NCBI GenBank assembly: GCA_016342655.1
Contig: JAEINL010000002.1
Location: forward strand, 51,744 to 115,743
Direction of reading: 5' to 3'
DNA: 64,000 nucleotides
DNA from: Sphaerochaeta sp.
GTDB lineage: Bacteria; Spirochaetota; Spirochaetia; Sphaerochaetales; Sphaerochaetaceae
Part shown: in pieces, positions 1,481 to 60,954 of the stretch
Numbering within the stretch: the stretch's first letter is position 1
Layout: every line of letters begins with the position of its first letter
Translations under genes and position numbers: made by a program
The notes under the pieces: generated by a model
What the model was told of the DNA's origin: nothing
The model's database searches: none
The model's input: the letters and a program-made list of their open reading frames with translations, nothing else

Positions 1481-1635
1481 CCCCAACGAAGCGAGAGTAG
1501 CACAAGCATTACCATGCTTCCATTACCGAGCGAGGGCTGGGAAAGCAAGGTGAGATACGTGAGCCCCTTGGCTCGGGAAAGGAGGCAACGCCTCCTCTTT
1601 CCAGGGCTTGCCCTGGGGTATTGATACCTTTCATT
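1481..1635. repeat. Multi-hairpin dispersed repeat, copy A
   Basis: CCCCAACGAAGCGAGAG...GATACCTTTCATT shared with copies at 2570, 42083 and 60496; consecutive hairpins GAGCC-CCTT-GGCTC, GGAGGC-AAC-GCCTCC, CCAGGGC-TT-GCCCTGG. Confidence 0.85.
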
Positions 1636-2472: not shown

Positions 2473-3739
2473 TCATCCAGCCGCTGGCAACCCATGCTTG
2501 AGCCGTCTTTTGCGTAGCTCCCTTTCAACCAACCTGGGGATGTCATCCCTCAGGTCCTTTGCCTTCATTCCCCAACGAAGCGAGAGTAGTGGAAGCATTA
2601 CCATGTTTCCATTACCGAGCGAGTGCTGGGAAAGCAAGGTGAGATACCCCGCCCCTTGGGGCGGAAAAGGAGGCAACGCCTCCTCTTTCCAGGGCTTGCC
2701 CTGGGGTATTGATACCTTTCATTACCCCGAAAATATAGAAGAGCTTCTGCACCTCCAGGGTCAGTTCACACCATTGTCCCTTTTCAAAGGTCTTGCCCTT
2801 TGGCTTCCTCCACTTTGCAGAGAAGATCTTATCCCTCAGGTCGTTGAAAGAGTACTTGTCAAACAGGAGGTACTCGTCCATTCTCCTACGGATCCACATC
2901 TCCAGGATGGTGGTGATGTAGACAAGGAATATCTTGCTTTTGAGATGTTCCTCAAGGCTGTGCCTGGGCCTTCTCATCCTGGTCTTATAGCACTCGTAGT
3001 CCTTCTCGATATAGTCCCTATTCCTGACCAGACCAAGGACCTTCTCACAACTGAGGCCTACAGGGCCAAGGAAGCCGAAGAAGCCGCACTCCTTCATCTT
3101 GTCCCTTTGCGCCTCCTTATTGTCGGCTATACCCACGAACTTGCCTTCTGCATCATACTCAAGCTCAAAGTACTTGCCGTAGGAGTTGCCTTTCTTATAG
3201 AGGCTCCTGTCTGACTCAAGGGCCTCCTTCATTTTCACAAACTTGCGGGCATGCCGCTGCTGGTCCTCTGCCTGTTTCTGCGAATCATGAAAAAGGTAGA
3301 GTGCAAGCTCATGGCGGTTAGGACCCCTGCCCCTTCTGGAGGCAGCAATGCCAATTGGCCTTGACCAGGCATGCATGCTGATGGAAGGGTAGAAGTTTTC
3401 AGTATCAAGGATTACATCATACGCCTCCCTGATGGCTTCCTTATAATAGGGGGCTGTCAGGGGCATGCCCATGATGAACTGGAAGCCGCTGCGGAGCAGC
3501 ATCACAATATTTGCCAGACTGTAGAACCCCCTGTCCATGAGCAGGATCGTCCCCTTGCGGAACTCAGCGACCTTGAGCTCCGCAAGGGTGACCTTAAGGA
3601 CATTCTTGTCGGAACAGTTGCCTTGGAGGGAGCGGAAGTACAAGGGGATGCCGGTAACGGCATCACAGATCATCAGCAGGTTGACCTGGGCCATGTCATC
3701 ATTCTCCTTGTTCTTGCCGAATTTCGCTGCCTCCAGCAT
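2473..3739 (-). pseudogene. IS4/IS1634-like transposase, N-terminally truncated and split near its C-terminus by repeat copy B
   Basis: DDE-type segment ILLMDRGFYSLANIVMLLRSG; reading frame LFYIFGVMK... is interrupted at 2570-2723 and resumes as MKAKDLRDDIPRLVERELRKRRLKHGLPAAG*; no in-frame start upstream before a stop. Confidence 0.85.
2570..2723. repeat. Multi-hairpin dispersed repeat, copy B (inserted in transposase)
   Basis: Same family as copy A; middle stem changed to CCGCCCC-TT-GGGGCGG with pairing preserved. Confidence 0.85.
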
Positions 3740-42027: not shown

Positions 42028-42082
42028 GCAGTATCCTTTGACAGATACCTGACTCTAGTCTGCTGAGTGGAACGTATCCATT

Positions 42083-42204
42083 CCCCAACGAAACGAGAGT
42101 AGCACAAGCATTAACAAGGTGAGATACGTGAGCCCCTTGGCTCGGAAAAGGAGGCAAGGCCTCCTCTTTCCAGGGCTTGCCCTGGGGTATTGATACCTTT
42201 CATT
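42083..42204. repeat. Multi-hairpin dispersed repeat, copy C (internally deleted)
   Basis: CCCCAACGAAACGAGAG...GATACCTTTCATT; lacks about 33 nt relative to copy A. Confidence 0.85.
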
Positions 42205-42362
42205 GCCCATCAAACCAGCCATCGGAACAAAAGAGTGCAATAGGTTTGTGTTTCCAAGAACCTGAACATAGGATTGAAAAACCCTTCTCCAAGCTCTTCA
42301 ATACCCATTGGGGAGCAACCGAAAGCAACTGGATTGCAAGCGTCTTGGAAAGGGAAGGGTGG

Positions 42363-53519: not shown

Positions 53520-53574
53520 ATGCCCCTTTGGAATAATGGGCATGCAAGATACCCAAGCTTGTACTCCGCAAGCT

Positions 53575-53745
53575 TTACGTAAAACCGTCCGAGTCAGGTC
53601 TCCTGGCTTAGGCTTCCTCGGAACCTGCGACTTCCCGCTTTTGGCAGTGTCATAATGCAGGTTCCCAGCCATTACAGTGGCGGGACCGCAGGGGCTTGTA
53701 CCCCTTTCCCTTGGCTCAGATTTGATTCATCGTACGTTTGTTACA
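53575..53745 (-). ncRNA. Cobalamin (B12) riboswitch
   Basis: minus strand contains AGCCAGGAGACCTGAC (B12 box) and GGTACAAGCCCCTGCGGTCCCGCCACTGTAATGG; directly upstream of btuF. Confidence 0.93.
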
Positions 53746-53804
53746 GGGCCACTGTCAAGTCATTCCGGTTGACCTAGGAATTTACCTACGGTACTATCGC
53801 TCGT

Positions 53805-60495: not shown

Positions 60496-60605
60496 CGTTG
60501 CCTCCTTTTCCGAGCAAAGGGGCTTACGTATCTCACCTTGCTTTCCCGGCACTCGCTCGGTAATGGAACCATGGTAATGCTTCCTCTACTTTCGCTTCGT
60601 TGGGG
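60496..60605. repeat. Multi-hairpin dispersed repeat, copy D (inverted, 3'-truncated)
   Basis: reverse complement CCCCAACGAAGCGAAAGTAG...AAAGGAGGCAACG; homology stops inside the second hairpin. Confidence 0.8.
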
Positions 60606-60954
60606 AATGAGAAGAAGGAAAGAGGAAATACAGCAGGATCTTTTTCCTGTGAACATCCATACATCCAATTACTCTGTTAGGCTAGCACTGGCTCTATTTG
60701 TGGTCAGGGCAAGGGCACGATACTTACTTGGTATACGTAACAAAAAGTACAAAGAGTGTAATATGATATATATAAGCTTATATTGGTATGAAATAAGTTC
60801 TTGATTTAGCTAAAAATCCATTACAAATTTGTTTAAAGTACAAATGATGTCATATGATAGATAAAGTAAAAAATATATAATTTGTTTAAATATATACAAA
60901 AAATAATTTCTGTATAAGAATAATGAAAATTATAAAAAATAAAAATACTTTGTA

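Follow-up and report, generated by a model that had tools for sequence, protein, structure and literature searches.

A folded, gene-less repeat of about 155 nt, dispersed through a Sphaerochaeta genome and shared by relatives, is very probably (probability about 0.86) a non-autonomous element that transposes as single-stranded DNA and is moved in trans by an HUH/Y1 transposase. Its target rule, its empty sites and its strand bias together form the signature of HUH/Y1 single-strand transposition, which points to a non-autonomous passenger moved by a Y1 enzyme of the IS200/IS605 or REP type. The original prediction had proposed a mobile non-autonomous family of the IS200/IS605-PATE or REP type; the copies, fold, target and empty sites support this reading, whereas a matching autonomous partner was not found. 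The IS200/IS605- or REP-type kind is known, and the spirochaete family is new and unusual in size, fold, breadth and strict target. A literature search of partial coverage returned no description of it, and the repeats form a genuine, apparently undescribed family of non-autonomous, single-strand elements within the Spirochaetia.

Copies in the 64-kb window

The window is the whole 64-kb stretch of Sphaerochaeta DNA that was analyzed. Four copies were located in it, exactly where they had been predicted, by direct reading of the sequence and by recovery as repeats, with the boundary rule taken from the target survey and the empty sites described below. Copy 1 (1481–1635, plus strand) is complete at 155 bp, runs from CCCCAACG to TTTCATT and follows the target GTGATT at 1475–1480; copy 2 (2570–2723, plus strand), also complete, measures 154 bp and follows TTCATT at 2564–2569. 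Copy 3 (42083–42204, plus strand; target TCCATT at 42077–42082) has both ends and spans 122 bp, its left hairpin lacking about 33 bp. Copy 4 (about 60496–60605, minus strand) is without the right end, covers model positions 1 to about 119, and has the target CTCATT beside its left end at 60606–60611. The left-end 20-mer occurred four times in the window against 0.01 expected. The end sequences agreed with those predicted, CCCCAACGAA(G/A)CGA on the left and GATACCTTTCATT on the right, and the empty sites proved the predicted limits exact: the ATT preceding CCCC belongs to the target, and the last base of the element is the final T of TTTCATT.

Spurious open reading frames (ORFs) lie over the repeats at 1282–1677, 2473–2676 and 42055–42240, as had been pointed out. 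The 3′ end of a minus-strand transposase-like ORF, 2612–3739 (window 2498–3739), is occupied by copy 2, which replaces the C terminus of this ORF, so that the annotated C terminus is element sequence. Further copies elsewhere also lie inside insertion sequence (IS) genes. The window additionally holds a cobalamin riboswitch (Rfam RF00174) at 53574–53749 on the minus strand.

A conserved two-domain fold

Single copies folded far better than shuffled sequences (z = −4.3 and −4.4). The left domain is one long hairpin within a TTCCC/GGGAA clamp, and the right domain comprises three hairpins, the closing helix of which stops just before the terminal TTTCATT. The prediction of three hairpins in series is thus too simple for the element as a whole. 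Covariation modeling, proposed as a check, backed the fold: among 32 diverse copies, 18 of 55 pairs had two-sided compensatory changes, which exceeded 500 of 500 shuffles and all slid controls. RNAalifold alone gave a weak consensus fold, and single-copy folds mapped onto the alignment gave a clearer one. Folds and covariation agreed in placing the folded ends subterminally, with no terminal inverted repeats. Judged by these alignments, a 158-nt two-domain fold backed by compensatory changes is common to the relatives' copies, whose unit of about 158 nt counts in the target ATT. Covariation is silent on whether DNA or RNA is the active form, because single-stranded DNA and RNA fold alike.

Precise insertion beside a six-base target

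Flanks were surveyed in 90 copies of the own genome and 65 copies of relatives. The left flank was mostly TT[C/G/T]ATT, in which ATT was invariant and A was nearly excluded from the position before it, while the right flank was random and the element terminus was CTTTCATT, so that target and right end resemble each other. The joined flanks of copies were then compared with genomic loci collected from the own genome and from relatives. One copy of Sphaerochaeta halotolerans had a clean empty site in two genomes, Sphaerochaeta sp. S2 and G014; IS copies of G003 and G010 provided one for another copy of this species, and two own-genome copies had theirs in paralogs of the same genome. Whether from relatives or from paralogous IS copies, each empty site ran from TT[C/T]ATT or a closely similar form straight into the right flank, with no duplication and no loss. 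These sites show that insertion is precise and proceeds without target duplication; aligning the copies with their flanks, as suggested, thus gave both a fixed target motif and exact empty sites. In the distant genome G420, the right end is CTTTATT and T precedes ATT in the flanks (four copies), and end and target seem to vary together there.

Strand bias and a proposed mechanism

Orientation was examined on draft contigs with the strand inferred from GC skew, and in a complete congener the sign change of GC skew along the chromosome fits two replichores. In the own genome, 47 of 50 copies lay on the G>C (leading-sense) strand (p = 4e-11), and orientation was uniform along whole contigs; in other species, this was the case for 42 of 52 copies (p = 9e-6). 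Gene direction does not explain the bias, as leading-oriented copies between co-directional genes agreed with the gene direction in 16 cases and disagreed in 12. Copies on the G>C strand place the top strand of the element on the lagging-strand template, and insertion into this template is documented for IS608 and ISDra2 (PMC6006769). The bias had not been predicted, and it also fits an IS200/IS605-PATE or REP-type element.

From these features and the absence of genes, we infer a single-strand intermediate and an enzyme of the Y1 class. An HUH/Y1 tyrosine transposase supplied in trans would recognize the folded left and right domains in the single-stranded DNA of the lagging-strand template. 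It would cut on the left 3′ of TT[C/G/T]ATT and on the right 3′ of the element's own TTTCATT, and would then join the element to DNA 3′ of another TT[C/G/T]ATT, leaving no target duplication.

Abundance, recent amplification and spread

The host genome (3.9 Mb in 161 contigs) carries about 130–166 copies (roughly 150). A whole-genome pattern search allowing up to two mismatches found 166 right ends and 131 left ends, against 0 right ends and 0–1 left ends for reversed control patterns, and the four copies first reported are thus no more than the part of the family that lies in the window. BLAST likewise confirmed many copies, the best 40 of 192 candidates in the own genome having 92–100% identity. 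Fully read contigs totaling 437 kb contained 60 matches, of which 45 were complete and 56 lay outside long ORFs. Mean pairwise identity of the full own copies was 94%; 38 of 90 had a partner at ≥99% identity, and nine copies with different flanks were identical. These identities show that the element was recently amplified in this genome.

Conservation in relatives was found as well. Among 150 genomes, the own one included in both counts, BLAST detected the element in 19 and a covariance model in 20, representing four GTDB families that all belong to the class Spirochaetia. A phylum-wide draw of 395 genomes gave seven positives, all inside this class, including G420, which represents a further family and holds a divergent, multi-copy form. 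Among the hosts with a name are Sphaerochaeta halotolerans 4-11T and several Sphaerochaeta MAGs, together with Spirochaetales MAGs. Searches of phages, plasmids and viral contigs gave no match, so that carriage on any of these was rejected; a known RNA family was likewise rejected, since an Rfam search with the copies gave no gathering-level match and nothing convincing up to E = 5. Neither outcome named beforehand as contrary to the prediction, namely four copies alone without conservation or a segmental duplication, was observed.

Candidate mobilizing enzymes

Members of the Y1_Tnp family are few in the own genome: one intact REP-associated transposase (RAYT), one IS200-like copy and fragments. 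The RAYT is single-copy, 269 aa long and located beside a dprA-like gene (G000:C13:15250-16056). Its best NCBIfam model is the REP-associated transposase, with a score below the curated cut-off; its sole solved structural relative is TnpA-REP, and the HUH and Tyr positions are conserved. By these similarities, it is a diverged REP-associated transposase. A long RAYT occurred in 15 of 20 element-bearing genomes compared with 5 of 130 element-free relatives, and within the genus the association had p = 0.004. This dprA-linked RAYT would be the likeliest mobilizing enzyme in Sphaerochaeta, at somewhat better than even odds. We infer rather than observe this role, because kinship confounds the association and because the distant genomes G111 and G420 contain many copies while no long RAYT was detected in them.

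A RAYT gene bounded by element ends was rejected, as a copy adjoins the gene in G138 and G068 only. G016 possesses a RAYT, and no search found an element copy in it; 400 kb of this genome, sampled for another RAYT-served repeat family, contained no dispersed one, and a second family was rejected on this basis. A cluster of local 50–150 bp repeats lies at G016:C1 ~1780–1786 kb (L336 13661–18682), a few kb from the RAYT gene. The search for a Y1/HUH transposase with matching ends thus yielded Y1 candidates but none with fully matching ends, and no autonomous element with such ends was found in the loci examined. The IS200-type transposases of relatives were rejected as a common partner, having no shared ends.

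Alternative explanations

The same single-strand mechanism could be served by an IS200-type TnpA, which would make the element a strict IS200/IS605 PATE and reduce the RAYT link to shared ancestry; we regard this as a serious possibility that nevertheless falls short of even odds. The IS200-like element of the own genome, L031 (G000:C101:56105-56467; L031 1468–1830), reads TTTTCATT where its left junction lies and ends on the right in GGCTTCATT (CTTCATT). TTCATT therefore stands at both junctions, as in the element, and this keeps an IS200-type TnpA a possible mobilizer. An IS200-type TnpA is moreover intact in G111, which has no RAYT, and decayed in G420, and Haloquadratum PATEs expand even though the IS200 genes there are mostly pseudogenes (PMC3119063). 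However, L031 is a single copy with a TAG stop codon directly before the catalytic Tyr and has little else in common with the element; the IS200-type copies of other genomes are mutually unrelated and without TTCATT ends, and several element-bearing genomes (G001, G017) have a RAYT only.

A mechanism other than single-strand transposition appears much less probable. Reverse transcription of a retro-element or intron-like RNA at lagging-strand primers would produce strand bias and truncated copies, and would suit the conserved structured fold; among truncated copies in fully read contigs, nine were 5′-truncated and four 3′-truncated. This polarity is weak, however, and several of the 5′-short copies begin at one internal ATT-ACCGAG, which may suggest cleavage at an internal site. 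Rfam gave no match of any kind, the fold belongs to the subterminal type, and one six-base motif stands both ahead of the left end and at the close of the right end, as HUH cleavage predicts, so that we consider a retro-element improbable. A non-mobile, vertically inherited family of regulatory RNAs or terminators would agree with the position of most copies outside long ORFs and with a short copy that four genomes retain upstream of one gene (see below), yet it is contradicted by the exact empty sites, by insertions within IS genes and within a conserved region, and by near-identical copies at unrelated loci, and is very unlikely. Least probable of all, to the point of being negligible, is a DDE-type MITE or a segmental duplication: the element is short, non-coding and dispersed, but it displays neither of the MITE features, terminal inverted repeats and target duplication, and the unrelated sequences flanking the copies and the empty sites contradict both origins; segmental duplication was rejected on account of these flanks.

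Relation to known elements

Like Haloquadratum PATEs and other non-autonomous IS200/IS605 elements, the spirochaete element is gene-less by its length, numerous, and has near-terminal palindromes with no terminal inverted repeats or target duplication (PMC3119063). The ends of PATEs match an IS605-type transposon present in that organism (PMC3119063); here no such partner was found, and a single full-length fold is retained in several bacterial families. Three of four features of IS200/IS605 passengers were thus found (subterminal fold, fixed target without duplication and lagging template), a matching autonomous partner being the exception. With IS608 and ISDra2 it shares insertion 3′ of a short fixed target resembling the right-end cleavage site and the preference for the lagging template (PMC6006769), whereas those elements encode their own TnpA (and TnpB).

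High copy number, extragenic location and folded DNA recall REP/REPIN repeats with their RAYTs (PMC8266576, PMC2817692, PMC3733652), as do the single-copy RAYT of most element-bearing genomes and the GTAG or GGAG that some members of the family have ahead of the left hairpin. Unlike REP repeats of 20–40 nt (PMC8266576, PMC2817692, PMC3733652), however, the element is about 155 nt long, its tetranucleotide varies (GTAG, GGAG, GGAA in S. halotolerans, GAAA), it has a fixed TT[C/G/T]ATT target, and it is not concentrated around the RAYT gene. Since two defining REP features, a short unit with a conserved tetranucleotide and clustering at the RAYT, are absent, we do not file it as REP; a RAYT may still move it.

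The bcr1 repeat, at about 155 bp, is of similar size to the spirochaete element. BCRs of the Bacillus cereus group measure 100–400 bp, and bcr1 reaches up to 130 copies and has a short mobility-linked TTTAT motif; it belongs to another phylum, and the authors suggest a mechanism resembling site-specific recombination and name no transposase (PMC6542083). Compared by this description, bcr1 comes closest as an analogue in its size, its copy number and its TTTAT-type motif.

That a domesticated RAYT disperses class-wide, structured single-strand elements of one full-length architecture across several Spirochaetia families is a tentative idea, which we rate as somewhat doubtful. If this holds, the family would form a mechanistic bridge between REP elements and IS200/IS605 PATEs, and a host function may explain why it has been retained. 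RAYT proteins cleave REP DNA in vitro. To our knowledge, movement of a REP-type repeat has never been shown directly, and insertions with known target, ends and strand are rarely at hand. The spirochaete family provides exact boundaries, a six-base target, empty sites, strand bias and mostly one intact RAYT per genome, including the cultured Sphaerochaeta halotolerans 4-11T, which makes REP-type movement testable. In the own genome, roughly 25 kb of repeat DNA as well as spurious ORFs trace back to the element, and repeats of this kind may break up short-read assemblies.

Variant copies

Copies of the G138/G118 group reach up to about 200 nt (L171 782–937, L201 2949–3146) with additional or longer hairpin arms, placed at matching positions, in both domains, and the fold therefore tolerates added arms. 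Matches to model positions 1–94 were rejected as starts of longer autonomous elements; they are copies shortened by internal deletion, four of which occupy a single common site. At G000:C22:12391-12444 (L058, L059), two right ends stand head to head in a near-perfect 54-bp palindrome, AATGAAAGG...CCTTTCATT. In four related Sphaerochaeta genomes (L166 4066–4156, L167 2448–2539, L168 2952–3042 and L169 4003–4094), one short copy lies immediately upstream of the same nucleotidyltransferase-like gene; it is an old insertion retained at this site and perhaps used by the host. A lone distant copy at G418:C3:75588-75680 (L367) has a left domain with GAGCGAG motifs and a single hairpin on the right side, and is possibly a simpler or ancestral form of the element.
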